A stretch of DNA of 37,974 nt from a bacterium (GCA_024275575.1 JAJRYV010000057.1:1-37974); one strand, 5' to 3'. Numbered from the stretch's first letter, positions 6,359-28,444 are shown. Notes: a model not told the origin generated them from the sequence alone. Made by a program: numbers and translations.

Positions 6359-6361
6359 TGC

Positions 6362-9372: not shown

Positions 9373-9380
9373 AATAATAT

Positions 9381-9388: not shown

Positions 9389-9523
9389 ATTTTTAATCAT
9401 TCGTTGCTTTCAAAGGTTGCAAAACATTTGAAAATACATTTTCTAACCAGATACACGTAAATTTTGCTTATCTGCTCAGCTTGGATAAAATACAAATCAT
9501 GTTAACCAGCATGTAGAAAAAAC

Positions 9524-9548
9524 ACATGAGTAAAGCGACTCATTATTT
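9524..9548 (-). terminator. Hairpin with U tract between cas6 and cas8
   Basis: ATGAGT (9526-9531) and ACTCAT (9538-9543) form a 6-bp stem. On the minus strand the stem is followed by GTGTTTTTT, and on the plus strand by TATTTTT. It lies in the 193-bp gap that separates cas6 from the rest of the cas genes, the largest break in the effector part of the operon. It is a weak terminator candidate; cas8 may have its own promoter in the AT-rich stretch at 9389-9525. Confidence 0.35.
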
Positions 9549-9565
9549 TTAATTCACATTCCCCA

Positions 9566-10682: not shown

Positions 10683-11738
10683 TTAACGCTCATTCAGCAG
10701 CAGGAAAATATCTTCTTTGGAAATATTGAGCTTTTCGATGCGGTAGCGCAGTTTACCGCGATTGATTTTAAGCAAGCGCGAGGCTTTACTCAAGTTGCCG
10801 CCGGCTTTTTGAATCGTGCTCAAAATGATATCCCGCTCCAAAGTTTCTAGGGCGATACCTTCGTTGGGAATTTCGATGGGATTAAAATGCAATTGTGTTT
10901 TTGAGGCTGATCTGCCGTTACCGCCGGTTCCATTCCTGCGCACAAATTCAGGCTGCGGTTCGAGAATTAGATGCTCAGCATCGATATAAACCGGGGCATA
11001 AACCAGAATGGCCCGCTCGATGGCGTTGCGCAGTTGGCGTATGTTGCCGGGCCAGTGATAATTTGCGATCAAACTTTCGGCTGCGGCTGTTAAACCGAGA
11101 GTGTGGTTTTCATTTTCTGCGGCAAATAGTTTGACGAAATGCATCGCCAGAACAAGCGCATCGCCGCTGCGCTCGCGCAGGGGTGGAATTTGTACATGCC
11201 CCACATTCAGACGATGATAAAAATCTTCACGAAAGCGCCCTTGCCTCACTTCTTCATACAAATTGACATTTGTCGCCGCGATGATGCGGCCCGAAATATT
11301 GATTTCCATCGTGCCGTTGAGTCGACGAAATTTTTTATTTTCCACTGCCTTGAGCAATTTCATCTGAATGCCGTTGGTGGTGTTGCCGATTTCATCCAAA
11401 AAAATAGTGCCGCCGCCGGCCAGTTCGAAAAGACCACGTTTGTTCTGATCAGCACCGGTAAAGGCGCCCTTTTCATAACCGAAAAGCTCTGATTCCAGCA
11501 GATTGATGGGAATGGCGCCACAATTGATATCGATAAAAGGTTTGTCCGCATCGGCGCCGGTTTCGTGGATGAGTTTGGCGAAGAGTTCCTTGCCGGTGCC
11601 GCTTTCACCGGTAATCAGCGTCGTCATCGTCGAGGATTTGGCGATGCGAATCGCCAAATCGACGGCCTGACGGAGCTGCGGCGATTCACCGATAATGGTC
11701 TTGTGCGGATGACTTGAGTTCGGTATTTTGAGTGTCAA
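10683..11738 (-). CDS. Sigma-54-dependent transcriptional activator without receiver domain
   Basis: This 351-residue bacterial enhancer-binding protein consists of a AAA+ domain and a C-terminal Fis-type helix-turn-helix. Walker A is GESGTGKE (44-51), the sigma-54 contact loop GAFTGA is exact (91-96), and Walker B is TIFLDEIG (111-118). The DNA-binding helix is at ~305-340 (ILSTIQKAGGNLSKASRLLK). There is no N-terminal regulatory domain. Only ~13 residues precede the AAA+ module, as in PspF-like proteins, which are controlled by a partner or are constitutively active. It stands alone, divergently spaced from nothing, and 313 bp upstream of cas6 on the same strand. Its targets are not evident from the sequence. 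Confidence 0.95.
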   Translation of the reverse strand: MTLKIPNSSHPHKTIIGESPQLRQAVDLAIRIAKSSTMTTLITGESGTGKELFAKLIHETGADADKPFIDINCGAIPINLLESELFGYEKGAFTGADQNKRGLFELAGGGTIFLDEIGNTTNGIQMKLLKAVENKKFRRLNGTMEINISGRIIAATNVNLYEEVRQGRFREDFYHRLNVGHVQIPPLRERSGDALVLAMHFVKLFAAENENHTLGLTAAAESLIANYHWPGNIRQLRNAIERAILVYAPVYIDAEHLILEPQPEFVRRNGTGGNGRSASKTQLHFNPIEIPNEGIALETLERDIILSTIQKAGGNLSKASRLLKINRGKLRYRIEKLNISKEDIFLLLNER

Positions 11739-11907
11739 TTTTCAGATATTCTGCGTTTGATCTCTTTGGTTGTCATATTAAGCTGCGGAGCAAAAGCCAC
11801 TACGAGCATAGCCCATCAGCATCAAGTTAAAAAGTTTTAAATTGTGGATTGCTGGTGGATCGTGGTAAATATCCCTCTGATTTGTGCTCTTGAGGAGCAT
11901 AAATTCG

Positions 11908-11990
11908 TCTCCCTTCGAAGGGAGAATTAGCACGTCCCTCTTTGAAGGAAGAATTGCAAGTCCCCCTTTGAAGGGGGATATAGGGGGATG
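11908..11990. repeat. Cluster of three related palindromic repeat units
   Basis: Three units of ~26-30 bp are arranged in tandem. The first is TCTCCCTTCGAAGGGAGA, a perfect 18-bp palindrome (11908-11925). The second, TCCCTCTTTGAAGGAAGA, is imperfect (about 11935-11952). The third is TCCCCCTTTGAAGGGGGA with 8-bp arms (11961-11978), followed by TATAGGGGGATGT. The third unit matches a type of intergenic repeat often seen in diverse bacterial genomes. Confidence 0.75.
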
Positions 11991-12256
11991 TCTGCACTTG
12001 GCCGAAACGAAGTTCGGTGAAGCAATTACACATCTCAGTAAACACGTAGTAAGATCCACTATCTTTCCGCATCAGCGCGTTATTACCTCTGGCTAAAAAA
12101 CTACCGGAATGGCAAGCCTGGAGCGATTACGAAAGAATACTCAATATCATTAAGTTAAGCCGTGGACATCCGTATCTGTTCAGCGTGCGTGCGAGAAGTA
12201 CTTCCTGAACATGGATGTATTATTTTAATTCATTCGGGCCTCCACTTATAGAATCC

Positions 12257-12347
12257 GTGTCCATCCGCCTGATCCGTCCTATTTGTGTTCTGTTTTTGAA
12301 AAGCTTTGGATACGGATTCAGCGGATTGAAAGGATTTTCACAGATAC
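12257..12347. repeat. Diverged inverted repeat rich in ATCCGC/ATCCGT
   Basis: CATCCGCCTGATCCGTCC (from ~12261) and, inverted, GGATACGGATTCAGCGGATT (from 12308) share the ATCCGC-TGA-TCCGT core in opposite orientation with about 30 bp between. It looks like a decayed intergenic repeat. Confidence 0.45.
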
Positions 12348-12418
12348 AGGGCTGTCGGCATAAAACGTCAAAAAATGACAACAGAATAACCTGCTATTGT
12401 TTTTTAGCCTTTATTGTT

Positions 12419-12490
12419 CTCGCGGAGACGCAGTGCTGCAGAGGAAAACAGCATAAAATATTTAAAAACAAAACTCTGCGTCTCAGCGAG
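12419..12490. repeat. Long inverted repeat, MITE-like
   Basis: CTCGCGGAGACGCAG (12419-12433) pairs with CTGCGTCTCAGCGAG (12476-12490), 13 of 15 positions complementary, with a 42-bp AT-rich centre. It is followed by ATTATTTTTT. It resembles widespread GC-armed intergenic repeats of the CGCAGAGACGCAG type. It carries no coding sequence. Confidence 0.6.
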
Positions 12491-12646
12491 ATTATTTTTT
12501 AATAAAAAATTAAGTTTCCAACTATTCCACTAACTTAATGACATTGAAAGAATACTATTCACAACAGATTCAACTCAATTGTGTATTTCATCCTGCGCAC
12601 TGATCATATAATCGGCATGCTGCATCATGCTCTGAATATGCCTGCC

Positions 12647-13537
12647 TCAGCTTTCCCGCGGGTTGTTTGCCTGGCGCAGGGCGTCGCCGATCAGGTTAAA
12701 CGCGATGACGGTGAGAATGAGAAAAAAACCGGCAAACCCCACCACCCACCAATACTCCGGCAATGCTGTCCGCCCGTCGTTGATCATATTTCCCCAGCTC
12801 GGAACCGGCGGCTGCACCCCGATGCCCAAAAAACTCAGGGACGATTCCAGCAAAATCGTATCGCCGATTTTCAAAGGAATTGAAACCAGCGCCGGCGCGA
12901 TGGCATTGGGCAAAATATGAGCGAGTAAAATACGCCGCCGCCGCAACCCGAGACATTGGGCGGCGAGTACGAATTCGCGCTCTTTTACCGAAAGCACCTC
13001 CGCGCGTACCAGCCGGGCTGTTTCCATCCAGCCGGTGAGGGCCAGCAGTGGAATCAGGTAAAGATAATGCGGTTGGTAAAGCGCTGCGATAGCGATAGCG
13101 AGCATCACTACGGGAAAGGCTAACAGCAGGTCGAGCAAGCGCATCAAAAGAGCATCGACGAAGCCGCCGCAATAACCCGAAATCGCACCATAAAAAACAC
13201 CGATCAGTACGGACAATGTTACCGTGCCCAGGGCGATACTCAGGGAAACGCGGCCGCCGTAGAGAATGCGGCTCAACACATCGCGGGCGAATTTGTCGGT
13301 ACCGAAGGGGTGTGTGACCGATGGCGGCAAATTGCTTGCATCGAGAATATCAGCTTGCGCATCCGGGGCAAAATCGGTCCAGATTGCGGGAACGAAACAG
13401 CTCAGCATCAGCGCGCACAGCACAATTGCACCGAGAATTGCGACACGATTATCGATCCATCGCTGGTGAAAATGCTGTTGTTGCGCGAAAAACCGGTTTT
13501 TTTCTGCAATACCGGCATTTAAAACTTCAAGACTCAT
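12647..13537 (-). CDS. Peptide-type ABC transporter permease (DppC/OppC family)
   Basis: This 296-residue inner-membrane permease has about six membrane segments. An N-terminal hydrophobic segment (NRVAILGAIVLCALMLSCFV) is followed by a periplasmic stretch with the family pattern SVTHPFGTDKFARDVLSRILYGGR. The coupling (EAA) loop with the ATPase is near LLESSLSFLGIGVQPP..SWG. It overlaps the upstream permease gene by 11 bp and is the last gene of the transporter operon. No strong terminator follows; a weak GCATG-CATGC hairpin lies at 12615-12630. Confidence 0.95.
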   Translation of the reverse strand: MSLEVLNAGIAEKNRFFAQQQHFHQRWIDNRVAILGAIVLCALMLSCFVPAIWTDFAPDAQADILDASNLPPSVTHPFGTDKFARDVLSRILYGGRVSLSIALGTVTLSVLIGVFYGAISGYCGGFVDALLMRLLDLLLAFPVVMLAIAIAALYQPHYLYLIPLLALTGWMETARLVRAEVLSVKEREFVLAAQCLGLRRRRILLAHILPNAIAPALVSIPLKIGDTILLESSLSFLGIGVQPPVPSWGNMINDGRTALPEYWWVVGFAGFFLILTVIAFNLIGDALRQANNPRES

Positions 13538-14498
13538 AAGCAGGTTTCACCCGTGGATCGACGATGAGATAGGACAGATCGGCGAGCAAATTACCGATCA
13601 CCACTGAAAGCGCAGCGACAAAAGTCGTCGCCAGAATAATGGGAAAATCATGCGAGAAAATCGCATCAACGGTAATTTTGCCCATGCCGGGCCAGGAAAA
13701 GATCGACTCGATGATCACCGTACCGCCGAACAGAAAGGGCAGAAAAAGTCCCAACGAAGACAGTAGCGGCAAAAGGGCGTTACGCAATGCATATTTAAAC
13801 AAGACCCGCCGGTGGGCGATGCCGTACGCTCGCGCCGTTAAAATATAATCCTGAGTCAAAACTTCCCGGAAAGATGCATGAAAAATTTTCGCGGTGTAAG
13901 CCATGGCCGGCAGGCTTAGAACAGCAGCAGGCAAAATGAGGTGGCGGATGCGATCGAGCGTTGCAGGCCAAAAATTCCCTTCTGCGAGCAAGTTCGCCAT
14001 GTGACTCGGCGGCAACCAGCCCAATTGTAGTGAAAACAGCCACAATGCGACGATAGCAACGAGAAAACCCGGGGTGGAATAAGCGATCAGGATGATAATA
14101 TTCAGTAGATGCCGCAGGCTTTTTTGGCGAATGACGGTCAGCGCGATACCGGCAAGCACACCGCCGCATAATTGCAGAATCAGCACCACCCCCGTCAGTT
14201 GCAGTGTATTGGGTATGGCTTCGGCGAAAATTTCACGAACCGGGCGTAAATGGGAAAAAGAAAAACCGAAATTACCACCGGCAAAAGCCTGCAACCATGC
14301 TGCATATTGCGTCGGCAGCGGACGATTGAGCCCCATCTGCTCACGAATATTGGCCACCACTGCGGGGTCAATTTCCGGCCGGATATAAAGCGAAGCCGGA
14401 TCACCCGGTGCGCATTGCAGCAGCACAAATGTCAGCGTGAGCACCGCCCAGACGATGAAAATGGCTTGCAATAAGCGTTTTAAAATGTATCTCACCAC
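13527..14498 (-). CDS. Peptide-type ABC transporter permease (DppB/OppB family)
   Basis: This 323-residue inner-membrane permease has the classic DppB opening MVRYILKRLLQAIFIVWAVL and LQCAPGDPA, then REQMGLNRPLPTQYAAWL. Six membrane segments are visible. The ATPase-contact loop lies around ARAYGIAHRRVLFKYALRNALLP, and the C-terminal FSWPGMGKI..DAI is a family hallmark. It partners with the product of 12647-13537. It begins 13 bp after the second ATPase gene. Confidence 0.96.
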   Translation of the reverse strand: MVRYILKRLLQAIFIVWAVLTLTFVLLQCAPGDPASLYIRPEIDPAVVANIREQMGLNRPLPTQYAAWLQAFAGGNFGFSFSHLRPVREIFAEAIPNTLQLTGVVLILQLCGGVLAGIALTVIRQKSLRHLLNIIILIAYSTPGFLVAIVALWLFSLQLGWLPPSHMANLLAEGNFWPATLDRIRHLILPAAVLSLPAMAYTAKIFHASFREVLTQDYILTARAYGIAHRRVLFKYALRNALLPLLSSLGLFLPFLFGGTVIIESIFSWPGMGKITVDAIFSHDFPIILATTFVAALSVVIGNLLADLSYLIVDPRVKPAYES

Positions 14499-14511
14499 AA
14501 TAATTTACCTT

Positions 14512-15306
14512 TTATAAGTTCACCGCCGGAGCGACAGATTCGGCAACTGGGGTCTGTGCTAAAAACACTGCTGCTTCGGCTGCATGATTCGCCGGAAAAA
14601 TCTCACAGATTGCCCCCTCGCGCATCACAGCGATGCGGTCGGCAACGTTTTCGATGGCCGCAAGATCGTGGGTGATGAACAGCACTGTCAGTCCGTGTTG
14701 CTGTTGCAGGTTTTGCAGCAATTCGATAATTTGCCCCTTGATCACTGCATCGAGATTTGCCGTGGGTTCATCAGCGATGAGCAATTCCGGTAGCACGCTG
14801 AGCGCTCGGGCAATGCAGGCTCGTTGCATCTGACCACTGCTTAGTTGGTGTGGAAAACGCGGCAGCAATTCGGCGGATAAACTGACTTCGTCACAAATTT
14901 GCTGCAGGCGTTGTTCGAGTTGCACTCCCGACAGTTTTTCCAGCAATCGCAGGGGTTCGGCGAGGGCCTGCCGCAGGTTTTGCCGGGGATTGAGTGCAGC
15001 GGCAGGGTCCTGAAAAATCATCTGAAATTTTCGCTGCAAGCGGCGGAATTTACCCGCCCGCATATCGAGCAGATCTTCATCCTGATAAAAAACTTCACCA
15101 CTATCGGCTTTTTCCAGGCGCAGCAGACAACGGCCGAAGGTGGTTTTACCGCTGCCTGATTCTCCCACCAGCGCTAATATTTCCCGGCGATAGATTGTGA
15201 ATTCGGCAACATCGAGAACTTTGCGGGGAACAGCGGTACGGAATAATTCGCCGGTTGCCGCATATCGTTTCGAGAGATTGTTGATTTTCAGATACGGATA
15301 CTTCAT
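14512..15306 (-). CDS. Peptide-type ABC transporter ATPase (DppF/OppF-like)
   Basis: This 264-residue nucleotide-binding subunit has Walker A GESGSGKTT, Q-loop MIFQDPAAALNPR, Walker B ELLIADEPTANLD and switch His (FITHDL). The signature is LSSGQ rather than the usual LSGGQ; the serine change is seen in other active ABC proteins. It is shorter than typical OppF (~320) because it stops soon after the ATPase core and lacks the full peptide-transporter C-terminal extension. Its ATG overlaps the upstream ATPase stop by 4 bp. Confidence 0.95.
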   Translation of the reverse strand: MKYPYLKINNLSKRYAATGELFRTAVPRKVLDVAEFTIYRREILALVGESGSGKTTFGRCLLRLEKADSGEVFYQDEDLLDMRAGKFRRLQRKFQMIFQDPAAALNPRQNLRQALAEPLRLLEKLSGVQLEQRLQQICDEVSLSAELLPRFPHQLSSGQMQRACIARALSVLPELLIADEPTANLDAVIKGQIIELLQNLQQQHGLTVLFITHDLAAIENVADRIAVMREGAICEIFPANHAAEAAVFLAQTPVAESVAPAVNL

Positions 15307-16160
15307 CGAACCGTCACCGGAGCCCTGGTTTTCTGCGGTTGTGCCTGGTTAATTTTGCACTGACTGAGCAGGAGTTTTGTATACGCATGCCGGGGTTTTT
15401 GCAGCAGCGTTGCTGCAGACCCGCTTTCGATAATACAGCCGTCTTTCATCACCGCAATTTTGTCGGCAATTTTGGCGACCAGCGCCAGATCGTGGCTGAT
15501 GAGCCACAGCGTAAAACCGTAATTTTTCTGCATGTGCCGCAGCAGCCTGACAATTTCGCGCTGCGTTTTACTGTCGAGGGCGCTCGTCGGTTCATCAGCG
15601 ATGACCAGTTGTGGGCCACAACTCAAGCCCATAGCGATCATCGCGCGCTGCGCCATGCCGCCGCTGAGTTGGTGGGGATAAGCGTTAAAAACGAAATCAG
15701 GATCGGGCAGACCGATTTCGGCAAGCAAATCGAGGGCGCGTGCTCTCGCCGGTATTTTTCGCAATTGCAGGTGGGTGCAAATCACTTCGACCATTTGCGT
15801 ACCGATGGTAAATGTCGGGTTAAAGGCTGATTTTGCATGTTGGAAAATCATGGCGATGTGACGGCCGCGAATCTGGTTTAGATCCTGTTCTGCAATGTTC
15901 CGCAGATTTTTCCCCTGAAAAATCACCGCACCGTAAGTCCGCACATTAATCGGCAGCAAGCCCAGCGTGGCAAGTGCGGTCATCGTTTTGCCGCAGCCCG
16001 ATTCTCCGATGAGCGCAAAAGTTTCGTTATTCGATATCTGCAGGCAAACACCATCGAGGATGGTGACGGGTTCCACCGGAGAATTAGTCTCTACCCGCAG
16101 CGCTTCGATGAGCAGCAGCGGCGGTGCTTGCCCGGTTACTTTTGCATTATTTACAGACAT
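15303..16160 (-). CDS. Peptide-type ABC transporter ATPase (DppD/OppD-like)
   Basis: This 285-residue nucleotide-binding subunit has Walker A GESGCGKTM, Q-loop MIFQHAKSAFNPTFTIGTQM, signature LSGGMAQRAMIAMGL, Walker B QLVIADEPTSALD and switch His (LISHDLALVA). It forms a heterodimer with the next gene product. The C-terminus (PRHAYTKLLLSQ) matches the start of the oligopeptide C-terminal extension but ends early. It lies 36 bp after the binding-protein gene. Confidence 0.95.
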   Translation of the reverse strand: MSVNNAKVTGQAPPLLLIEALRVETNSPVEPVTILDGVCLQISNNETFALIGESGCGKTMTALATLGLLPINVRTYGAVIFQGKNLRNIAEQDLNQIRGRHIAMIFQHAKSAFNPTFTIGTQMVEVICTHLQLRKIPARARALDLLAEIGLPDPDFVFNAYPHQLSGGMAQRAMIAMGLSCGPQLVIADEPTSALDSKTQREIVRLLRHMQKNYGFTLWLISHDLALVAKIADKIAVMKDGCIIESGSAATLLQKPRHAYTKLLLSQCKINQAQPQKTRAPVTVR

Positions 16161-16196
16161 TCACCAAACCTGTTTTAAAACGATTCCGACAGTGAA

Positions 16197-17810
16197 TCAC
16201 TCAGAGGACAAGCGGTTTCCAATAACGTACCATTTCTCGATATCATAGAGCGAACTCAGCGTAATGGGTTTCACATTGGCGTACCGTCGATTCACTGCGA
16301 CGATTTTTTCCTTCCAGAAAAGAAAGGTGTAGGGCTGATCGGCATATAGTTTTTTCTGAAATGTCTGCCAGATTTTTGCCGCTTTTTGCTGATCCAGTTC
16401 ATTGCGGCCATTCTCGATTAGCGCATCGATTTGCGGGTTGGCGTAGCGTACATAGTTGAACAAATCGACGGAGGCGCTGTGAAAAACCGGCGTCGGATCG
16501 ACATTAAACGCCGCGCCCCAGCCGCCGAGATAAGCTTCAAGGGAGGGTTCGCGTAACTGGTCGAGATATGCCGTCCATTCCGCACTGTGGATTTCCGCTT
16601 TTACGCCGATTTTTTTAAACTGGCTCTGCACGATAACGGCCAGGTCTGCGCGAATCTGGTTGCCGGTGTTGGTCAATAGCGAAAAAGCAAATGGTCTGCC
16701 GTCCTTATCCAGCCAGCCGTCACCGTCGTGATCTCTCCACCCCTCCTGCGCCAGCAGGGCTTTGGCTGCAGAAACGTCATATGGAATTTCATCGACGTCT
16801 TCGGTGTAAGCCCAGGGAATCATCGGCGGAATGGGGCCGAAACAGGGTTTGCCGTAACCTCTGAGTAACGCTTTGATGATTTTATCGCGATTTAAAGCCA
16901 TGGTCAACGCGCGGCGCACACCTTTGGCAGCGAAGAGCGGGTTTGCCTCGTTGTAACCAATGTAATAATAAGTCCGCCCTGAGATGCGATGAAAGGCGAG
17001 CTCGCTGTTTCTCTTTTGCAGGCGTTTGATTTCTTTTATGGGGACATCGAGCAGCATATCGATCTGGCTGGTTTGCAGTTGCAGCAGCAGATTGCTTTGA
17101 TCGGGCACGATTTTAAAGATGACCTGCTTGAGCAACGGCTGGTCGCCGAAATACTGTTCATTGGGCACCAGTTCGATATATTGCTGGCTCACCCAGCGCC
17201 TCAGTTTAAACGGGCCGGAAGAAAGCGGATGGCGACCGAAATCATGCGCCCGCAGCGCCGCGCGATCGCTATTTTCAAAAATATGCTGTGGCAAAACTTC
17301 TCCGGCAGCGTCGAACATTTGTTCGGGATAAGGCTCTTTAAAAATAAAGGTTACAGTGTGCGGGTCTTCGACGACAACATCCTCGATTAACTCCGTTTCC
17401 CCCATGCGCGGCGTTGCCGTGCGTTTATCACGCTTGAGCTCAAATGTAAAGCGTACATCCGCCGCCGTGATGGCTTTGCCATCGGCCCAAAGAGCATCTT
17501 TGCGTAAGTGAAATTTCAGCTTCAGATGGTCTGGCGAGCTCTCCCACGAGGTCGCCAGTTCCGGCACCCATTCGGAATTCTCATTCAAATCGGCCAACCC
17601 GAGAAAAAGCATGTCGGCGATTTCCAGCCCCAGTTTTGATTCGATAAAAAGCGGGTTAAAAGTATCCACATCCCCGGAGACGCCGATACGGATGTAGTCA
17701 CCATGTGTTGTGCCGGGTTGCAGATTTAGCGCATTGGCTGCAGCGAGGGCACCATCTTCTATGGGCAGAATCAGACTTAATGTTAAAATGAGGACAGAAA
17801 TTTTCTTCAT
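16197..17810 (-). CDS. Periplasmic peptide/solute-binding protein, family 5
   Basis: This 537-residue extracytoplasmic solute-binding protein is of the DppA/OppA type. The signal peptide MKKISVLILTLSLILPIEDGALA ends near an AxA site (ALA-AANA). No lipobox cysteine is present, so it should be soluble in the periplasm. Family segments include DTFNPLF near the N-terminus, LATSWESSPDHLKLKFHLRKDALWADGKAITAADV, and the hinge-region LSSGPFKL. The stretch DHDGDGWLDKDG forms an EF-hand-like calcium loop, common in this family. The start has a GGGAG site, itself flanked by two competing small hairpins (17819-17844). The substrate cannot be told from sequence; oligopeptides are the default guess. Confidence 0.96.
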   Translation of the reverse strand: MKKISVLILTLSLILPIEDGALAAANALNLQPGTTHGDYIRIGVSGDVDTFNPLFIESKLGLEIADMLFLGLADLNENSEWVPELATSWESSPDHLKLKFHLRKDALWADGKAITAADVRFTFELKRDKRTATPRMGETELIEDVVVEDPHTVTFIFKEPYPEQMFDAAGEVLPQHIFENSDRAALRAHDFGRHPLSSGPFKLRRWVSQQYIELVPNEQYFGDQPLLKQVIFKIVPDQSNLLLQLQTSQIDMLLDVPIKEIKRLQKRNSELAFHRISGRTYYYIGYNEANPLFAAKGVRRALTMALNRDKIIKALLRGYGKPCFGPIPPMIPWAYTEDVDEIPYDVSAAKALLAQEGWRDHDGDGWLDKDGRPFAFSLLTNTGNQIRADLAVIVQSQFKKIGVKAEIHSAEWTAYLDQLREPSLEAYLGGWGAAFNVDPTPVFHSASVDLFNYVRYANPQIDALIENGRNELDQQKAAKIWQTFQKKLYADQPYTFLFWKEKIVAVNRRYANVKPITLSSLYDIEKWYVIGNRLSSE

Positions 17811-17818
17811 AACTACTC

Positions 17819-17844
17819 CCGGAAATTCCGGCGTCTGTCGCCGG
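17819..17844 (-). promoter_or_regulatory. Overlapping hairpins at the binding-protein ribosome site
   Basis: On the minus strand CCGGCG-ACAGA-CGCCGG (17844 to 17828) is followed by CCGGA-ATT-TCCGG (17831 to 17819). The two share the CCGG at 17828-17831, so only one can form at a time. The second abuts and partly overlaps the GGGAG ribosome site (17816-17820 region) of the binding-protein gene. Confidence 0.4.
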
Positions 17845-17860
17845 TTTCAATTCATTGCTT

Positions 17861-18265
17861 TCAAGCACATTCGAATTTTAAAAGTGTCGCCCCTAATTTC
17901 AGCAGGCAGCCATTCTTGATAACCGTCGGTTGTTGCGTTCTTTTGCCGTCGACGAAGACGCCGTTTTTACTGCCCATATCTTCGATTAAATAGCGATCGT
18001 CCTCACGGATGATCACCGCATGCCGTTTGGAAATCTGCGCGTCATGGATGACTATCTCGTTGGAAAGATCACGACCGATGCGATTTTCGCGGCGTGTCAA
18101 TAGGAATTTTTCCTCGCTGTCACCGCCTGCATAAACGAGGCATGCTTCATGTTGCCCATCTTCTTTCAAACTGATGCCACAGCGCGTGCAAAAATTGTTT
18201 TCCGGGCGGTTTTCATGCCGGCAAATATGGCATGTCTGCTTTTGTTTTGTTTCCATTTCATGCAT
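17861..18265 (-). CDS. Zinc-ribbon FHA domain protein
   Basis: This 134-residue cytoplasmic protein joins an N-terminal zinc ribbon (C12-x2-C15 and C26-x2-C29) to an FHA domain. FHA hallmarks are present: IGR (63-65), ISKRH (78-82) and SKNG (99-102). FHA domains bind phosphothreonine, and a Ser/Thr kinase is encoded two genes upstream, so it is a likely reader of that kinase. The first ATG overlaps the preceding stop by 8 bp; a second ATG three codons later is also possible. It lies 50 bp upstream of the transporter binding-protein gene. Confidence 0.93.
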   Translation of the reverse strand: MHEMETKQKQTCHICRHENRPENNFCTRCGISLKEDGQHEACLVYAGGDSEEKFLLTRRENRIGRDLSNEIVIHDAQISKRHAVIIREDDRYLIEDMGSKNGVFVDGKRTQQPTVIKNGCLLKLGATLLKFECA

Positions 18266-18533
18266 CTTTTTCGTTTAAAATACGGTCTTTCAAAGCAAGC
18301 GCCTGCTGATTTTCCGGATTGCCCGCGAGTACTTTTTCGAGTATCTCCAGGGCATCGTCATACTTGCCCATATTAAAATAGACCAGGCCGAGATTGGTTT
18401 TGATATCCACGGTTTTCAGCTCTTTTTGTGTCAACCCTAGGCCTTTACTAAATGCATCGAACCTGAAGCCACAGCGGCCGCAAAAATTATCGATCAGTTC
18501 GTTTTCAGTCTGACATTTTGGACAAATTTTCAT
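18258..18533 (-). CDS. Small zinc-ribbon TPR protein
   Basis: This 91-residue protein has a zinc ribbon (C4-x2-C7, C18-x2-C21, reading ICPKCQ and FCGRCGF) and one clear TPR at about 41-75 (TNLGLVYFNMGKYDDALEILEKVLAGNP). It begins 9 bp after the kinase gene and overlaps the FHA gene. The zinc ribbons of this protein and the FHA protein have the same spacing and could come from a shared module. It has no catalytic features and is probably an adaptor between kinase, TPR proteins and FHA reader. Confidence 0.9.
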   Translation of the reverse strand: MKICPKCQTENELIDNFCGRCGFRFDAFSKGLGLTQKELKTVDIKTNLGLVYFNMGKYDDALEILEKVLAGNPENQQALALKDRILNEKDA

Positions 18534-18542
18534 AACCAGTCT

Positions 18543-21500
18543 TCAGTTATTTGATGATTGAAGGGAATTATCCTGCTCATCAACACTTTGCGGTTCGGTG
18601 GCAACCGTATCCTTGCCGGAACGCGAATGTGCTGTTGCGCCGGCGCCGACAAGCGTCACAGCGGTTGCCAATTCTTTGTTTACCACCTCAATCTGCGCCT
18701 GCAATTTCTGACTTTTTTCAGTTAAGTTCAGATTGCGGGCGCTCTTCAACGCCCGGTTATATTGCTCGTCGGCCTGTTGAAAATTCTCTTTTTCGGCATA
18801 ATAATCACCGAATGCCTGACAGATTTCCAGCAGGGCCTCATCGTTGTTTTTCTGTGCATTGATTTTAATGCTGTCACGAAAATATTTTTCCGCTTTCGTC
18901 CATTTGTTCATCTTTTGTGAAATCAGCGCCAGAATATAATAGCATTCGGCAATATTGAGCATGTCGCCGGAGCGGCGGAAAATCTTCAGTGCTTTTTCGA
19001 TAAATTCAAGGGAATTGCCCGCCTCACCCCGGCGGATATAGGCTTTGGCCGTATTGAGCAGGGTCAGACCGCGGAGCTGCCGGTCGTTGAGTTGATCGGC
19101 CATTTTGTAACAGGCATTGAAGGTGTCGATGGCCGCCTCCCATTCCTCGATATCGGAATAGGCCATCCCCAGATTGTGCAGAGCGCGGCCTTTGCCGATG
19201 GCTTCCTGCAGTGAATCGTAAATAGTGATCGCATCGATATAGCATTCGATAGCAACTTTGTGATCACCGCGAATGCTGTGGATGATGCCGATATTCGTCA
19301 ACGCATGGGCGCGGTCGTATTCACCATAGACATGGTCGACAACTTCGGTGGTTTTTTGAAAATTTTTCAGCGCGACTTCATACTCACCTTTTTGCATATA
19401 GATAATGCCGATCGAGTTGAACAGGCGGCTCAAAGTATTGGGGATTGGATGAGTTCTGAGAATTTCAAGACAATTCTCGAAGCAGGTGAGCGCTTGCTGG
19501 TAATTTGCCAACTTTTCATGTACGCGCCCCATGCGGCGCAGCGCGTCGATCTGCACCCCGGTATCATCTTGTTTCCTGCCGTAAGTGAGCAGCGCTTCAT
19601 ATTTCTCCAAGCTTTCATCGAAGCGCATGATTTCTTCGTAGGAAATGGCACAATTAAGCAGAAATTCATGTTCCGGTACTTCGGGAGGAAAATCCATTTC
19701 CGCCTTTTCGAGACAGGTTGTGATATTTTCCAGAGAGACACTTGCCTCACGGTACGCCTTGAGTTTCAACGCGCGTTTTGCCGCCCGAAAAAGCAGAGGA
19801 ACCGCTTCGCTGCAACGGCCGCCGCGACGAAAATGCTCGGCCACTTCCCCGATGAGCGCGCCATAATGCGGCCCATGCATTTTTTCCAATATCTGCGCGA
19901 TGAGCAGATGGTATTCCCGGCGCAGTGCCGGTGGAATTTCCTCATACAGCATGTCGCGCAGCATAGGATGTTCAAATTGAAATCCATCTTCCGTCGATAA
20001 TAACAGATTCAGCTCACGATTGAGCAAATTCAGCATTTTCAACAATTTGATTTTTGGCTGTTCGGTCAATTCGGCCAGGATTGAGACATCGACTTTATAA
20101 CCAACGATGGCCGCGATTTGCAGGATTTCCCGTTTTTCTTCATCGAGCGCCTGCAGGCGACGGGAGAAAACATCTTCGATTCGGTTGGGCACATTAATCT
20201 GGTGAATCTCATCGCGTTTGTCATACCACGCATCATCTTCGAAGTAAATCTTCTCCGATTCCTGCAGATATTTGAGTGTTTCGATAACGAAGAAAGCGTT
20301 GCCCCGCGTTTCGGAGTATATCTTCTCGTAAAATTCCTCAGAAAAAATCGTGTTTTTCAGCGAATTATCGATCAGCTGGTCACAATGGTCGCGGTTAAAA
20401 CGGCTTATTTTAATTTCTTCGCAGACCCCCTCGCGGCTCATTCGCGCCAGCACATCGACGATTTTTGCAGCTTTGCCGTCGCGCAACAGATCATAACGAT
20501 CAGTGCGGGAAATTCCGACAAGCAAAATCCGGCTTTTCTCAATTTGCCGTGCGAGATAATGAAACAGCTTCAAACTGGCATCATCCGCCCATTGCAGATC
20601 ATCGAGGATGAAAACGATGGGCTGTATAGTTGAGAGCAGCGAAATGAGCACCAGTATGCCTTCGAACAGGTCTTTGGATTTCACCTCACCGGGTTCATTC
20701 AGCTCTTCCGGCGGTGCTGAAAATACGGTATTAAAACGCTCAGTATATTCCATCAGCAGCGGCACTTTATTGTGAATCACCGCTTTCAGCGTCATCCGTT
20801 GCTCTTCCGGCAACTTGCGCAAATCACCACTGAAATATTTTCGCAGTGCATCGATAAACGGCAGATAAGCGTCCATGCCTTCCTGATAAAGGCAGGCGCC
20901 ATAAAGGCAATGCGCCTGGTTATGGCCGGCATAATCCTGCAATTGCGCCGCAATCGTACTTTTGCCGACGCCGGCTTCGCCGAGTAAAATCACTGTTTTG
21001 CCACTGCCGTTTTTGACATGACGGAAACTTTGGATCAACTTTTTCAGCTCCTTTTTCCGGCCGATGAAGGTTTCGCGAACACCTGGAGTTTCTTCACCAA
21101 ACCAATCGTTTTTTCTGTCATCAAACATCTCATCCAATTGTGCATCGATGCCGGCGAGTGTCGTTGCTGCGGGCGAAGGTGTGGAGAAATTAAATGGCGC
21201 CAGCGCCCGGGCAAAGGCTTCGGCGCTTTGCCAGCGATCGGCAGCATTTATCGCCAGCGCCCGCATAATCACTTCATCGAGTTTTTCCGGGAGGGCGCAG
21301 TTGTAACAGGAAGGCGGCAGCGGCTCTTCGTTCAGTTGTTTATAAAGAATAACCACCGGCGTTTCACCGGTAAACGGCAAATGGCTGGTGAGCAGCTCAT
21401 ACAAAACGACCCCCGTGGCATAAATATCAGCCCGCTGATCGACCGCATCACCCATCAACTGTTCGGCAGCCATGTAATCGATGGTTCCGAGTATGTTTCC

Positions 21501-22001
21501 CGAGAGCGTCAGCCCGTTTTGTGGATTCAGCTTTGCGATGCCGAAATCGAGAATTTTCGCTTCATTCTCCGGTGTGATGAGAATGTTTTCCGGTTTAATA
21601 TCGCGATGCTGGATATTATTTTTATGAGCCAGCACCAGCGCATTGAGAACCTGCGTCGTGAACTTGACGGCATGCTCGACGGAAAAAGCGCCATGGCGCA
21701 GCAACGACTGGCCGAGCGACTGGCCTTCGACATATTCCATGACGATATATTGACCGCATTCGGCTTCGCCAATTTCAAAAATGGTGACGATATTCGGGTG
21801 GGTCAATCTCGCGGCAGCCCGAGCCTCATTCATGAAACGATCGGCGTTTTCCTGCTCTTCGAGCAAGTGGTCGTGCATGACCTTGATAGCGACGTCACGC
21901 TGCAAAATCGTATCGAATGCACGATGGACGACTCCCATGCCGCCGTGGCCGATGGTCTCCAATATTTCGTATTGCTTGATTGTTTTCATATCATTTCGCA
22001 T
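18543..22001 (-). CDS. Ser/Thr protein kinase - AAA-type ATPase - TPR fusion
   Basis: This 1152-residue signalling protein has three modules. The first is a Hanks-type kinase (~10-275) with G-loop GHGGMG, VAIK lysine, HRDIKPEN catalytic loop and DFG. Its usual APE motif reads AAE (YMAAEQL), an Ala for the usual Pro. The second, starting near residue 318 (TFIGRKKELKKL), is an ATPase with Walker A GEAGVGKST and Walker B VFILDDLQWAD, as in STAND/AAA_16 regulators, with winged-helix-like sequence after it. The third is a long C-terminal TPR array (about 780-1110) with repeats such as ALTCFENCLEIL and YEVALKNFQKT. No transmembrane segment is visible, so it is cytoplasmic. It follows the TPR gene by 6 bp. 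Confidence 0.95.
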   Translation of the reverse strand: MRNDMKTIKQYEILETIGHGGMGVVHRAFDTILQRDVAIKVMHDHLLEEQENADRFMNEARAAARLTHPNIVTIFEIGEAECGQYIVMEYVEGQSLGQSLLRHGAFSVEHAVKFTTQVLNALVLAHKNNIQHRDIKPENILITPENEAKILDFGIAKLNPQNGLTLSGNILGTIDYMAAEQLMGDAVDQRADIYATGVVLYELLTSHLPFTGETPVVILYKQLNEEPLPPSCYNCALPEKLDEVIMRALAINAADRWQSAEAFARALAPFNFSTPSPAATTLAGIDAQLDEMFDDRKNDWFGEETPGVRETFIGRKKELKKLIQSFRHVKNGSGKTVILLGEAGVGKSTIAAQLQDYAGHNQAHCLYGACLYQEGMDAYLPFIDALRKYFSGDLRKLPEEQRMTLKAVIHNKVPLLMEYTERFNTVFSAPPEELNEPGEVKSKDLFEGILVLISLLSTIQPIVFILDDLQWADDASLKLFHYLARQIEKSRILLVGISRTDRYDLLRDGKAAKIVDVLARMSREGVCEEIKISRFNRDHCDQLIDNSLKNTIFSEEFYEKIYSETRGNAFFVIETLKYLQESEKIYFEDDAWYDKRDEIHQINVPNRIEDVFSRRLQALDEEKREILQIAAIVGYKVDVSILAELTEQPKIKLLKMLNLLNRELNLLLSTEDGFQFEHPMLRDMLYEEIPPALRREYHLLIAQILEKMHGPHYGALIGEVAEHFRRGGRCSEAVPLLFRAAKRALKLKAYREASVSLENITTCLEKAEMDFPPEVPEHEFLLNCAISYEEIMRFDESLEKYEALLTYGRKQDDTGVQIDALRRMGRVHEKLANYQQALTCFENCLEILRTHPIPNTLSRLFNSIGIIYMQKGEYEVALKNFQKTTEVVDHVYGEYDRAHALTNIGIIHSIRGDHKVAIECYIDAITIYDSLQEAIGKGRALHNLGMAYSDIEEWEAAIDTFNACYKMADQLNDRQLRGLTLLNTAKAYIRRGEAGNSLEFIEKALKIFRRSGDMLNIAECYYILALISQKMNKWTKAEKYFRDSIKINAQKNNDEALLEICQAFGDYYAEKENFQQADEQYNRALKSARNLNLTEKSQKLQAQIEVVNKELATAVTLVGAGATAHSRSGKDTVATEPQSVDEQDNSLQSSNN

Positions 22002-22007
22002 GGTATT

Positions 22008-23330
22008 CTAATTTGCCCCCGGTGCGGCAATGCTTCCATCTTTCAACTTGCCGACAGAGTCAATGCGGTGAAGATTTTTATCCAGAGCATCGAAGGCATT
22101 GCTGCTCACCGCTTGCTGTAATTGCATCACATTTTTTATTTTTTCTGCTTCGTCCAAAATTTTTCTCACTTCCTTTTTCCGACCTGTATCCAGCAAAAAA
22201 CCGGCGTAGTCCATCAAAGCGGCCACCAGACCAAAAGGAATGCGCAAGTCACGATAAAAGCAGATGCTCGATTCATAACACTGTGCTGCAAACTTTTCCT
22301 TACCTGAGGCGCGGGCAATGGTTCCCAGCATTTTGCATGTGCGGGCAAATCCGGCCGGATTTCGCAAGCGTACGAATATTTCAAGCGCATTTTTACTCGT
22401 GGCAACAGCGAGTGGAATATCCTGAATTTCAAGATATAATTCACATTTATTGAGCTGAATAAACGCTTTCAGAACCTCTGCGCCTGTCGCCCGGCAAATA
22501 GCAGCAGCTTTTTCAAAACAATTCAATGCTTCCCGTGTATTTTCCTGCTGGAAATAAACCCGGCCGAGATTATTCCAACTCTCCGCCTCGCCATTCCGGT
22601 CATTGACACTTTGAAAACAAACTAGCGCTTCCTGCAAATTCGTGCGCGCTCGCTCCAGTTTGCCGTGCAAGCGCGCGATGACGCCCAAATGGTTAAGAAT
22701 AACCGCTTCGTGATATTTATCATCGATGCCGGACAGGTGTTCCAGCGCCTGCCGAAACAGCCCTTCAGCCTGTAAATACTCGCCCCGGCGGTAAGCAATT
22801 TGGGCCAGTTCGATCTCTGCTGAAATTACACTTTTGATATTGCCGGCGTTTTCGAGGGTTATCTTGGCCCTGGTGAGAGATTCTTCAGCTTCCGGCAGCT
22901 TGCCCTGTTCCGCCAGCAATTGCCCCATTTTCAGCAAAGCAGTACCCTTGAGGTTAAGCTGCACGCTGTCTGCTGACTGATCGATCAACTCCGTGTAGCA
23001 AGCAGCGGCCGGCGTCGATTTCCCCAACAGTTCATACATTTCAGCGAACAGCAGGAGAAAACGGGATTGCGGCGTTTCACCCGGTGCCAAACGCCGTGCA
23101 TGCATGAAACTGGCGTGCAGTAAATCGAGCTGATAATGCATCATTTTCAGGGTGTAAGTTTCTGCAGAATCACTGCCGGGCTCCTCCTGGTTTTGCAATT
23201 GTAAAACCTCAGCCAGGGGCTGTAAAACAACGGGGTCCAATCCTTTCGCCGGCGCCGAATTATCGCGATTTATCATGTCATGCAGTACTGCAACGTGCTG
23301 CAAAATCAAACGATCGTATGTTTGTTTCAT
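22008..23330 (-). CDS. TPR repeat protein
   Basis: This 440-residue cytoplasmic protein is made almost wholly of TPR-type helix pairs (for example GKLPEAEESLTRAKITL, GEYLQAEGLFRQALEHL, ENTREALNCFEKAAAI), with no signal peptide or enzymatic motif. Its start overlaps the upstream ATPase-TPR stop by 4 bp (ATGA) and its stop is 6 bp from the kinase start, so the three are surely co-translated. The TPRs resemble those of both neighbours, suggesting that it arose by splitting or duplication of a larger protein. It is likely a scaffold. Confidence 0.9.
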   Translation of the reverse strand: MKQTYDRLILQHVAVLHDMINRDNSAPAKGLDPVVLQPLAEVLQLQNQEEPGSDSAETYTLKMMHYQLDLLHASFMHARRLAPGETPQSRFLLLFAEMYELLGKSTPAAACYTELIDQSADSVQLNLKGTALLKMGQLLAEQGKLPEAEESLTRAKITLENAGNIKSVISAEIELAQIAYRRGEYLQAEGLFRQALEHLSGIDDKYHEAVILNHLGVIARLHGKLERARTNLQEALVCFQSVNDRNGEAESWNNLGRVYFQQENTREALNCFEKAAAICRATGAEVLKAFIQLNKCELYLEIQDIPLAVATSKNALEIFVRLRNPAGFARTCKMLGTIARASGKEKFAAQCYESSICFYRDLRIPFGLVAALMDYAGFLLDTGRKKEVRKILDEAEKIKNVMQLQQAVSSNAFDALDKNLHRIDSVGKLKDGSIAAPGAN

Positions 23331-25750
23331 CGATGTGCACTTTTTTTATGTTCTGCGACCTTCACCGAAGCGTGTGTTTTTTCAAGGGCCGTCAATTCCT
23401 GCCGGACACGTCGCGCTTTCATCTCGACACCGAGGTTTTGAAATCGATCCAGCGCTTTTTGATACCAGTTGCGCGCTGCTGATGAATTTTGCAGGGCCTC
23501 TTCCACTTTTGCCCGTTCATACTCGCTTTCAGCAATGCCCAGGCTGTTATTATGCTTTTTGAAATCTTCGATTGCGCGCTCCAGATTGTTAGCAGCGGCG
23601 GCATAATCGCCTTTTAACAATTCAATTACCCCCTGAATTTTGTAATATTCCGCCAGTCCCAGTGCGTCGCTAATCCGCTGCAGCAGATGAAAAGCTTTTG
23701 TGTTGTACTCCTCCGCTTCCGCGAGCCTGGCGAGCTGTGCCAGTGCTAAAGCGCGGTTGAGAAAAGTGATTGATTTGAGCGCGATCAGCCCCATCACATC
23801 GGAGATGCGCAAGCTTTTGCTATAAAACTCATCAGCTTTCCGCCAGTCTTCCAAATCCGCATGCGTCATGCCGATGTTGTGATAAATGCGTGCCAAACCG
23901 GAATGATCGCCGATCGCTTCAAAAATCGGCGTGCTGCGGCTGTAATAGACGATGGCCCGCATGCTCAGGCCTTTGATATTTTCCAGGGCGCCAAGAATGT
24001 TGTAAATATTCGCCAGCAATCTTTTGGCATCAAGCTTTTCGGCAATATGCAGCGCCTCCTGCAAATAGCTGCCGGCATCGTCGTAATTTCCCCGCTCAAA
24101 AGCCACGTGCCCGAGGCCGAAATTTGCCATGGCGATATCAAATTCGCGCAATTCGTTTTTCATCTGCAGGCATTCGACAAAGCAGGTTTCCGCCGCCTCG
24201 AGCTGATTTAAAAAATAATGCGTCAGGCCCAATTGAATACTAACCTGTACTTCGTGGTTTTTGTCACCGATTTTGCGGCAGAGAGAACGTGCGGCCTGAA
24301 AACGTCGCAAGCTCGATTTTCGTTCTCCGAGCAAACGTTCGAGCCAGGCATATTTGAGCAAAATCTGTACAGCTTCAGTTGCGGGTAAATTAGAGAAATT
24401 TTCTCCAGCCAGTTTTTCGGCTTCTATAAACGCAAAACGCGCTTCAGCGATGGCATAACTCAACAGGGCGAAGTTGGCGGAATCGATCAATGCGCGCAAG
24501 GCTTCTTCCTGTTCCCCTGCCCCGGCGCAGTGATAGGCCAGCAACGAAGCGCGCTGCTCCGGTGTTAGCTCCACAGCCTCGCGCACAGCTCTGGCAAGTG
24601 CGGTGTGCATCTGCTGTTTTTCAGCGTCGGCAATCTGCCGTTTAACTGCCATGCGCAGCACCGGCCGGTGAAAATCGTATTTTTCCTCATCGATTTGCAG
24701 AAGAATCTTCTTGTCACTCAAATCATACAGCGCCTGCAATACTTTAATGCGCGACCGGCCCAAAACCGGCGCTAAAATCTGGTGATCGAAAGTACGATCC
24801 ATAAGCGCAGCAAAACGCAGCAGACCTACTGCTTCATTCTGCAATCGGGATATTTCAGCCTCAGCCTGTTTGAGATCATGCTCTTTGCTGAATACTCTTT
24901 GCAAATCATCGCGTGAGACCAGGTCACGGTTATACCAGATTCCCTTTTGTTGATAAACAATTTTTTGATCGATCAAAACCTGAATGCATTTCGCCAGAGC
25001 CGCAGGCAAGCCGTGTGTTACTTCAAGGAGCAGAGGTACGAATTTATTGGTAAAATCAGTTTTACCAAACAACTTGAACAGGAATTTTCTGATTTCACCT
25101 TCACCGAACCGTTTGAGTTCGATAAATTGCACCAACCGTTCACGATTCATGCGCTGCAAGACATCCTGACAGGTGGCCACGCGGCCTGCTTTTTTTTCGT
25201 TAGAATTCAGACAGGCCGTGAGGAGCAAAATGATCCGGTGATCGCGGATGTTTTTACAAAAATAATGCAGGAACTGCAAATCTGAAGGTTGGGCATTCTG
25301 GATTTCGTGGAGAATAATAACCACATGCTGCCGCCCAATGGCGCTGAGAAGCGAGGTCAACAGTTTTTGTTGCGAAAAGTGGAAACCAGTTTGCAAACGC
25401 TCAAAATCGGCATTTTCCCAATCCTGCATGACGGTGCCGGTAAATACGGCATCATCACCTGCAACAGGTTCAGGTTTACTGGTAAGACCGGCCGGCTGTA
25501 ACAGTCGCAATATCTCCTGAAATGGTGCCAGCAAAGTGGAATCATCCCTGCTGCCGATCGTAACCGTGCAAATCCGGGCATCTTTCTCGCCGGCAAATTC
25601 GACAAATTTTCTGATGAGTGTATTCTTGCCGATACCGCTCTCGCCGGTCAGTGCGACAAATGAACCTATTCCTCTGCCGGACTTTTCAAAAATGCTTTCG
25701 AGTTTTTGTCGCTCGGGTTCCCGACCGATAAAAACTTTATCTGTATTCAT
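23327..25750 (-). CDS. STAND-like ATPase with TPR array
   Basis: This 807-residue protein resembles the C-terminal two modules of the kinase fusion. It begins with FIGREPERQKLESIF, the same entry motif as the kinase ATPase module, then Walker A GESGIGKNT. Where Walker B would read LDDLQWAD it has IILHEIQNAQ, so the first acidic residue is His; ATP binding may be kept but hydrolysis altered. The second half (~430-800) is TPR repeats. There is no kinase domain and no DNA-binding domain. It is the first gene of the compact run, with 208 bp upstream to the HD-GYP gene. No ribosome site is obvious at the ATG. Confidence 0.92.
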   Translation of the reverse strand: MNTDKVFIGREPERQKLESIFEKSGRGIGSFVALTGESGIGKNTLIRKFVEFAGEKDARICTVTIGSRDDSTLLAPFQEILRLLQPAGLTSKPEPVAGDDAVFTGTVMQDWENADFERLQTGFHFSQQKLLTSLLSAIGRQHVVIILHEIQNAQPSDLQFLHYFCKNIRDHRIILLLTACLNSNEKKAGRVATCQDVLQRMNRERLVQFIELKRFGEGEIRKFLFKLFGKTDFTNKFVPLLLEVTHGLPAALAKCIQVLIDQKIVYQQKGIWYNRDLVSRDDLQRVFSKEHDLKQAEAEISRLQNEAVGLLRFAALMDRTFDHQILAPVLGRSRIKVLQALYDLSDKKILLQIDEEKYDFHRPVLRMAVKRQIADAEKQQMHTALARAVREAVELTPEQRASLLAYHCAGAGEQEEALRALIDSANFALLSYAIAEARFAFIEAEKLAGENFSNLPATEAVQILLKYAWLERLLGERKSSLRRFQAARSLCRKIGDKNHEVQVSIQLGLTHYFLNQLEAAETCFVECLQMKNELREFDIAMANFGLGHVAFERGNYDDAGSYLQEALHIAEKLDAKRLLANIYNILGALENIKGLSMRAIVYYSRSTPIFEAIGDHSGLARIYHNIGMTHADLEDWRKADEFYSKSLRISDVMGLIALKSITFLNRALALAQLARLAEAEEYNTKAFHLLQRISDALGLAEYYKIQGVIELLKGDYAAAANNLERAIEDFKKHNNSLGIAESEYERAKVEEALQNSSAARNWYQKALDRFQNLGVEMKARRVRQELTALEKTHASVKVAEHKKSAHR

Positions 25751-25958: not shown

Positions 25959-26780
25959 TCAAACGCCGACCAGCGTCTGCAATCGGTCAAAAAGCCGGCG
26001 TGGGATTTTGCCGCATTCGGTTTCTTCCTGCAAAATGCCAAGCGCCTGCTCCGTGGTCATCGCCGGGCGGAACGGGCGGGCTGTCTTCAGGGCATCGTAA
26101 ATATCGCACATACGGATGAGTAGGGCGATCGAGTTTTCTTGTTTAAAACCTTTCGGATAGCCGGTGCCGATTCCATCTTCATGGTGGACGAATGCTGTCT
26201 GTGCAAGAGGATTTGTGGAATCACTGAAATAATAACTGAGTAAAAGAAAGCTGTATACCGGATGCTCACGGATGAGCTGGAATTCCTGTTCATCCAGGCG
26301 GCCGGGTTTGTCGAGAATCGCCTTTGGAATGCGGGTGATACCGAAATCATGCGTCAGCGAGGCGGCCATCGCCAGGCGCCGCTCAGTTCGATTTGTAAAT
26401 AAATCGAGAGACAGAACGGCCACCAACAGCGTGATAACCAGCGTATGATGGTAAACATATTCAAAGCGTTGCATCCACAGGAGTTCATCGATCAGACGTT
26501 CAGGGAAGATGATCGTCTGCAGGTTTTCAATTAAATCATTTTTTCTTTTTTCTTTTTTAAGGATGTGGCGAAAATCCGGCATTTCCATAATCATTTGTAA
26601 ATGCTGCATAATCGGCGTTTCGACGATCGCAGACCCCGCGCTCTCAGGTTCCGGCGCCATTTGCAATAAACACTCAATAAAATCAGCGTCGATCGCTTGA
26701 TTTTTCCGGGCGATCACCTTTTTGTCAATAGCGGTGAGATCAATACTGATCATATCTTTTATTTTCTTGCGGAAAAACAT
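25959..26780 (-). CDS. HD-GYP domain protein, putative c-di-GMP phosphodiesterase
   Basis: This 273-residue protein has a C-terminal HD-GYP domain: HD at 144-145 (LTHDFGITRIPKAILDKPGRL), H173 in REHP, HHE at 199-201 and GTGYP at 205-209. The distal segment IRMCDIYDALKTARPFRPAM is typical of the family. The linker between HHE and GYP is DGI rather than the usual RWD or KPD. The N-terminal ~100 residues have no recognised domain. Members hydrolyse cyclic di-GMP to GMP; conserved metal residues suggest that it is active. It is on the same strand as the signalling run, 208 bp upstream. A second ATG nine codons in (MISIDLTAIDKK) is also possible. Confidence 0.93.
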   Translation of the reverse strand: MFFRKKIKDMISIDLTAIDKKVIARKNQAIDADFIECLLQMAPEPESAGSAIVETPIMQHLQMIMEMPDFRHILKKEKRKNDLIENLQTIIFPERLIDELLWMQRFEYVYHHTLVITLLVAVLSLDLFTNRTERRLAMAASLTHDFGITRIPKAILDKPGRLDEQEFQLIREHPVYSFLLLSYYFSDSTNPLAQTAFVHHEDGIGTGYPKGFKQENSIALLIRMCDIYDALKTARPFRPAMTTEQALGILQEETECGKIPRRLFDRLQTLVGV

Positions 26781-27614: not shown

Positions 27615-27705
27615 AGTGGGCCTCTTTTTTTTTTTTGCTTTAAGAAATGAGAGTGCACCGATACCGATAATGCAATGGTACACAGCCAGGGTTGACTTTT
27701 CGTTA

Positions 27706-28389: not shown

Positions 28390-28444
28390 GTATTGACTCC
28401 GTTTGTTTTATTTTTCATTCTTAATTTTTTAAATCAGTTTTTCA

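Follow-up and report, generated by a model that had tools for sequence, protein, structure and literature searches.

How do a kinase, STAND-type proteins, an FHA protein and a peptide-type transporter come to be encoded side by side, and what would such an ensemble control? This question is raised by positions 12647-25750 of a 37,974-nucleotide stretch of DNA (GCA_024275575.1, JAJRYV010000057.1:1-37974; hereafter the window), which is contig C31 of a 4.96-Mb draft genome from Calditrichota/KSB1, a poorly studied group. An initial annotation, made from the sequence alone, had described a unit of ten genes there and proposed a phosphorylation-controlled uptake or sensing system. Our analysis suggests, with somewhat more confidence than doubt, that the locus is one sense-and-respond circuit driving lipoprotein genes, with a proposed size of about 14 genes, whatever the origin of its ligand.

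All ten open frames are present and intact on the minus strand, where the other features of the unit also lie, and the near-gapless order initially annotated is borne out by the frames, their spacing (-4, 6, 9, -8, 50, 36, -4, 13 and -11 bp) and their domains. In order, the genes encode an 807-aa STAND-like AAA_16 and TPR protein (23327-25750), a 440-aa TPR protein (22008-23330), a 1152-aa protein joining a Ser/Thr kinase (Pkinase), an AAA_16 STAND ATPase and a TPR sensor (18543-22001), a 91-aa zinc-ribbon adaptor with a single TPR (18258-18533), a 134-aa zinc-ribbon FHA protein (17861-18265), a periplasmic binding protein of SBP family 5 (SBP_bac_5, Opp4A-like; 16197-17810), two ABC ATPases of the OppD/NikD (15303-16160) and OppF/NikE (14512-15306) types, and two BPD permeases of the OppB (13527-14498) and OppC types (Opp4C; 12647-13537). 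The binding protein, two permeases and two ATPases show the features of an oligopeptide/dipeptide/nickel ABC importer. The ten genes are therefore real, but the boundaries 12647-25750 were too narrow, as the conserved unit also takes in the lipoprotein genes at 27006-29086 and, as its last gene, a sigma-54 activator gene at 10683-11738.

The kinase, the ATPase-TPR protein and the binding protein were used as queries against 60 relatives; the three match the same contigs in a genome of the same genus (G001) and in genomes of other families (G037, G019 and G038), and two contigs in G034. Gene order is kept in these five further genomes, which span three families, and the same order is found in named genomes (L060, L065 and L067, and in part on contigs L061-L064 and L068). 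Among named relatives a Calditrichaeota bacterium (QQUE01000003) is the closest, with a binding protein 75% identical, which places the source in Calditrichota/KSB1. The common order is lipoprotein(s), optionally an HD protein, ATPase-TPR, TPR, kinase-STAND-TPR, zinc-ribbon TPR, zinc-ribbon FHA, binding protein, OppD, OppF, OppB, OppC and sigma-54 activator. Since the genus and two further families of the class share this order, the ten-gene arrangement is not due to chance, and the view of kinase, STAND-type proteins, FHA reader and transporter as one unit holds. Indeed, the signalling block and the transporter lie together wherever both are visible; only in G034 does the binding protein lie on a different contig, next to a second copy of the kinase. 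G038 is without the separate TPR gene, and OppD and OppF are fused in G037.

Further loci show which parts recur. A short variant from a sister family (L044, L046, L048 and L056) consists of OppB-C-D, the binding protein, a sigma-54 activator with a REC-like N-terminal domain, lipoprotein(s) and a TPR protein, without kinase or FHA; the TPR protein is kept beside lipoprotein and transporter, with the transporter placed after the TPR gene in L138 and L142. A third variant (L047, L049 and L050) has a kinase-AAA-TPR fusion with a histidine kinase. In L068 a histidine kinase replaces the Ser/Thr kinase, L063 has both, and L132 in G034 holds a minimal lipoprotein-TPR-activator set without transporter. 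The recurrent core is thus the lipoprotein, the TPR protein and the sigma-54 activator, usually with Opp, and the phosphorylation input is exchangeable. The short variants without kinase and FHA but with a REC-like activator, the swap in L068 and the coexistence in L063 suggest that kinase plus FHA feeds the activator, and this exchange of input modules among relatives is the main argument for kinase plus FHA acting on the sensor-less activator of the full unit. Counted by hand, 23 of the 24 in-class lipoprotein clusters adjoin TPR, transporter or activator genes. The binding protein was rejected as a marker of the unit outside the phylum, where (in Acidobacteria, Omnitrophota and others) it is accompanied by Opp genes only.

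The probable output was found at the opposite end from the activator gene. A sigma-54 -24/-12 promoter (CGGCACACTGCTTGCG, 29144-29159), located by consensus scoring, lies 57 bp ahead of the start codon of the first lipoprotein gene, lp213, and rpoN is present in the genome. A blind count of such sites in the window, allowing 2 mismatches, gave 19 versus 25 expected, no excess over chance, and the signal is significant only by its placement before lipoprotein genes across relatives. With a fixed scoring of the consensus (a threshold of 19 out of 21.5, applied to the 300 bp ahead of the first lipoprotein gene), a site was present in 19 of 21 clusters. Among 390 control upstream regions the share was 2.05% (p about 1e-30 for the difference), and among shuffles it was 0.5%. 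The predicted promoter wiring of the lipoprotein genes is well supported by this placement.

The activator has the features of a bacterial enhancer-binding protein, namely an AAA+ domain with the GAFTGA loop and a Fis-type helix-turn-helix (HTH), without an N-terminal sensor domain. Two 18-bp copies of a dyad, TTKGCTSA-NN-TCAGCMAA, lie at 29257-29295 (3 mismatches each), 98-136 bp further up than the sigma-54 site, and are a candidate binding site of the activator. The dyad occurs upstream of 7 of 8 full-type sigma-54 sites, often repeated and about 95-180 bp further up in the window's type, and is almost missing from the rest of the 176 kb of loci. It is confined to the type whose activator carries a conserved INRGK-type HTH; the activators of the short variants differ in their recognition helix, and no dyad was seen there. 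In two short variants (L044 and L048) the activators show GAFTDA in place of GAFTGA. A genome-wide search with the relaxed dyad pattern gave too many matches to define a regulon; the dyad half-site together with a promoter occurs at two places in the window's own genome, one of them the unit. Together, the sigma-54 activator, the lipoproteins and the promoter with its activator-like dyad suggest that the output is transcription of lipoprotein genes and not control of uptake. The initial proposal of phosphorylation-controlled uptake or sensing is thus supported in part.

Two further places in relatives display the same regulatory signals. At L133 (9402-10077, G034:C103), a lone family lipoprotein away from any unit, a probable distant member of the regulon by its upstream region, has a near-perfect sigma-54 site and a dyad. 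At L149 (3440-3600, G037:C299), a second copy of a triple dyad and sigma-54 site is followed only by short or decayed frames and a 169-aa protein of unknown type, with no recognisable lipoprotein.

In the signalling proteins, the VAIK Lys, HRD Asp and DFG of a Hanks-type Ser/Thr kinase are intact in 7 of 7 members, and the same protein keeps intact Walker A and B motifs (GEAGVGKST and FILDD) in an AAA_16 domain scoring above the Pfam cut-off. The model of its AAA-TPR part (mean predicted local distance difference test, pLDDT, 77) resembles along its full length the TPR-sensor STAND protein 6MFV, its top PDB match (E 1.2e-15, 761 columns), which gives structural support to the STAND label and to a predicted STAND-with-TPR-sensor architecture; the peptide receptor RapF (3ULQ) is only a distant TPR fold match to this model. 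In contrast, the 807-aa protein retains the P-loop (Walker A) and has lost the Walker B acid in 6 of 6 members, and it is therefore probably a nucleotide-binding partner and not an active ATPase. The TPR proteins have only generic TPR matches in NCBIfam and Pfam, with no match to the Rap, Rgg, NprR, PlcR, PrgX or AimR families. In both zinc-ribbon proteins the four Cys are invariant, as are Ser79, His82 and Asn101 of the FHA domain.

The three lipoproteins, lp213 (28445-29086, ending in PHFSRYAIAHSQ), lp227 (27706-28389, ending in NHFSRYALGTE) and lp225 (27006-27683, ending in PHFSRYAIAHSR; true start probably the ATG at 27614), have lipoboxes and a ZU5-like domain, and do not match any Pfam family. 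They are the only family matches in their own genome; in relatives, strong matches cluster at loci of the unit, and weak ones are parts of large proteins. Across the phylum, strong matches are found in 21 of 82 genomes, including G081, which was not used to build the profile and has a lipoprotein beside a TPR gene with a sigma-54 site. Outside the class (G063 and G064), the lipoproteins occur without the unit. In the AlphaFold model of lp227 the domain (pLDDT about 90) ends with a strand (211-218), F219-S220 and a last strand (221-225). Its top Foldseek match is the ankyrin ZU5 domain 3f59 (E 5.8e-4, prob 1.0), with the GAIN structures 8vy2 and 4dlo and UNC5b lower, at TM-scores that are modest (0.4), partly through much disordered chain. 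A profile search was weakly positive (ZO-1 ZU5, E 0.007), and the lipoproteins are predicted to share the ZU5/GAIN superfamily fold. All 47 recovered members end in a Ser/Thr-x-Tyr tail of 7-9 residues, whose Ser/Thr always directly follows the position of a His-Phe pair (Asn-Val in one member). His-Phe-Ser/Thr is the residue pattern of the self-cleaving ZU5, GAIN and Nup98 domains. Within a genome, the tails resemble one another more closely than would be expected from the identity of the bodies (permutation p 0.0015); lp213 and lp225, for example, have weakly similar bodies and near-identical ends. The tandem lipoproteins of the short variants L051, L134, L135 and L139 also carry genome-specific tails, with SMR/SMK in G008, STK/STR in G014 and SLR in G002.

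Gene order, co-conservation, intact motifs, the placement of promoter and dyads, the variants and the fold are what the sequence offers; from here we infer the type of ligand, the direction of the signal, the link from kinase through FHA to activator with the contact between the last two, and the function of the lipoproteins. The Opp-type transporter, with its own binding protein, would import an oligopeptide-like ligand, or respond to a periplasmic cue. In the cytoplasm, this ligand or the occupied transporter would be detected by TPR sensors, namely the STAND ATPase-TPR protein, the TPR protein and the TPR domain of the kinase itself, and a ligand-driven, ATP-dependent assembly of the STAND kinase would switch on Ser/Thr phosphorylation. 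The two zinc-ribbon adaptors, FHA and TPR, would read this phosphorylation and release or recruit the sensor-less activator, which may bind the dyads and fire the sigma-54 promoter of the ZU5 lipoproteins, and perhaps of the rest of the unit.

Several observations weigh against this circuit. The binding protein is related to Opp4A but stays under the curated cut-off, and it does not reach the cut-offs of substrate-specific subfamilies. The activator gene is separated from the transporter by 908 bp in the window, versus mostly about 60-300 bp in relatives, and gaps of 225 and 208 bp between the lipoproteins and the ATPase-TPR gene make cotranscription with the lipoproteins uncertain. The FHA Arg that contacts phosphothreonine (Arg65) is present only in the genus and G038 and is His in four others, that is, in most relatives outside the genus, and therefore the domain may not always read phosphate. 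Finally, the dyad was found by eye on the same sequences used to count its enrichment, which is descriptive (at up to 3 mismatches, 14 matches in 2.06 kb upstream of 8 lipoprotein clusters versus 17 when all loci, 176 kb, are counted, and these 17 include about 10 of the upstream sites).

The most specific alternative would make the ligand a product of the unit itself. The ZU5 lipoproteins would be exported precursors of a peptide autoinducer loop in a diderm phylum, self-cleaved between His-Phe and Ser/Thr, with the freed tail of 7-9 residues re-imported by Opp and read by the TPR/STAND sensors as in RRNPP, and phosphorylation, FHA and activator leading to more lipoprotein. The Ser/Thr-x-Tyr tail of all 47 members, the Ser/Thr placed as self-cleavage by an N-to-O shift would need, the ZU5 and GAIN fold matches with F219-S220 between the last two strands, the likeness of tails within genomes, and the union of TPR sensors, a feedback promoter and a transporter of the peptide type in one unit all speak for it. 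Nevertheless, the tail may be just the last beta strand of the domain, and self-cleavage is predicted from a residue pattern; the CxH motif of bacterial ZU5 autopeptidases (PMC3482391) is absent from the lipoproteins, the unit is without a processing or export protease, and outside the class the lipoproteins occur without transporter or TPR genes. Similarly, tandem duplication or gene conversion could account for the likeness of tails. We regard the loop as rather unlikely, with the tails as possible imported pheromones and the circuit possibly a cell-to-cell peptide signal. A similarly low probability is assigned to nutrient uptake with feedback, in which di/oligopeptides or a metal chelate enter through the transporter, the kinase signals how much is available and the sigma-54 regulon tunes scavenging envelope lipoproteins, with no signal between cells. 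It fits a transporter of an ordinary family, the company that the binding protein keeps outside Calditrichota and the fact that PknG answers to amino acids under the control of a solute-binding protein (PMC6069109), but leaves unexplained why locus-specific, fixed-tail lipoproteins are the conserved promoter target and why one cluster holds several tail classes.

It is far less probable that a signalling block and an ordinary Opp operon are two uncoupled neighbours. The 50-bp gap between the FHA and binding protein genes, the displaced binding protein of G034 and the lipoprotein-TPR-activator set without transporter could be read in this way. Nevertheless, nine loci preserve the junction between the FHA and binding protein genes, and starts and stops often overlap within the run. 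The activator gene keeps its place next to the transporter, with the promoter that it probably targets at the far end, and the short variants too keep the transporter beside lipoprotein and TPR genes.

Returning to the circuit that we favour, its composition appears to be undescribed in the literature searched, as had been supposed, although GlnH-GlnX-PknG-OdhI/GarA of Actinobacteria is a clear partial parallel and, together with RRNPP, the nearest in logic. PknG joins rubredoxin, kinase and TPR parts, has no STAND ATPase, and acts on an FHA protein that regulates a metabolic enzyme. The actinobacterial pathway functionally links a solute-binding protein, a TPR-containing Ser/Thr kinase and an FHA protein (PMC6069109, PMC9769921, PMC8546545), a logic proposed for the unit too, with the actinobacterial binding protein reporting nutrients to the kinase (PMC6069109). 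In contrast, the unit has a full Opp transporter in the place of the membrane protein GlnX, zinc-ribbon adaptors, a sigma-54 activator and a lipoprotein output; its kinase is PknB-like with STAND, it has no GlnX-like gene, and its FHA protein scores 40 bits against the OdhI cut-off of 200. The RRNPPA systems of Firmicutes (PMC9765709) share the plan of exported precursor, Opp import and a cytoplasmic TPR receptor controlling transcription, with peptide sensing only a candidate here. Their receptors are almost only found in Bacilli and use small propeptides (PMC9765709), whereas in the unit, which comes from a diderm phylum, a folded lipoprotein is the possible precursor, and the path would also run through kinase, FHA and sigma-54. 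The kinase's AAA-TPR part shares the NOD-arm-TPR architecture of the TPR-sensor STAND proteins MalT and PH0952, in which the NOD module comprises P-loop NTPase, helical and winged-helix parts, with 6MFV as its best structural match (PMC4381067, PMC6468293). Unlike in these, a Ser/Thr kinase here takes the place of a DNA-binding domain as effector, and the Walker B acid is missing from another member of the family. A further likeness, one of described architecture, is to PknK of Mycobacterium tuberculosis (PMC9045387). PknK phosphorylates regulators and combines its kinase with a regulatory part of the ATPase/TPR type, but no partnership with a transporter, a sigma-54 activator or a zinc-ribbon FHA protein is known for it. 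As for the lipoproteins, ZU5 superfamily domains, bacterial ones included, are described as self-cleaving (PMC3482391), and the likeness to ZU5, GAIN and Nup98 domains concerns the predicted fold and the His-Phe-Ser/Thr site at the turn before the last strand (PMC3482391, PMC3210808); here, however, they are short diderm lipoproteins whose chain ends 7-9 residues past the putative cleavage site.

If the circuit is true, it would be an undescribed one, kept across a class whose phylum has seen almost no genetics, and would link Ser/Thr phosphorylation to sigma-54 transcription and to a fixed-tail ZU5 lipoprotein family; the literature searched on Calditrichota with sigma-54 or peptide signalling gave nothing relevant. 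The locus bears on two questions, the self-cleavage of bacterial ZU5 domains and the sensing of imported peptide signals by TPR proteins in diderms outside Firmicutes.

The surroundings of the unit add a few observations. An HD-domain protein (HD_5, 25959-26780, minus strand) lies between the lipoproteins and the ten-gene run, a position kept in the genus, with a nearby one in G034. A CRISPR array of 15 repeats of GTTTCAATCCCACGCTGATTCAATTCAAAC with the type I-B genes cas1, cas3, cas5, cas7, cas8b and cas6 (1-966 and 1388-10369) lies directly downstream of the unit and is not conserved with it in relatives. The initially suggested resemblance to defence proteins found no support: PADLOC gave only generic matches to kinase and TPR, and with the CRISPR genes outside the conserved unit the reading as a defence system was rejected. 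An Rfam scan of the window gave no match. The spacer between OppC and the activator gene (11738-12647) holds three near-copies of a 26-bp repeat at 11894-11972 and looks like a repeat-element insertion. Adjoining the lipoproteins, a divergent gene (29518-32667) encodes a 1049-aa hybrid histidine kinase (GAF, PAS, HisKA, HATPase and receiver domains), with a 59% identical neighbour in G001, and is a possible further input to the circuit.

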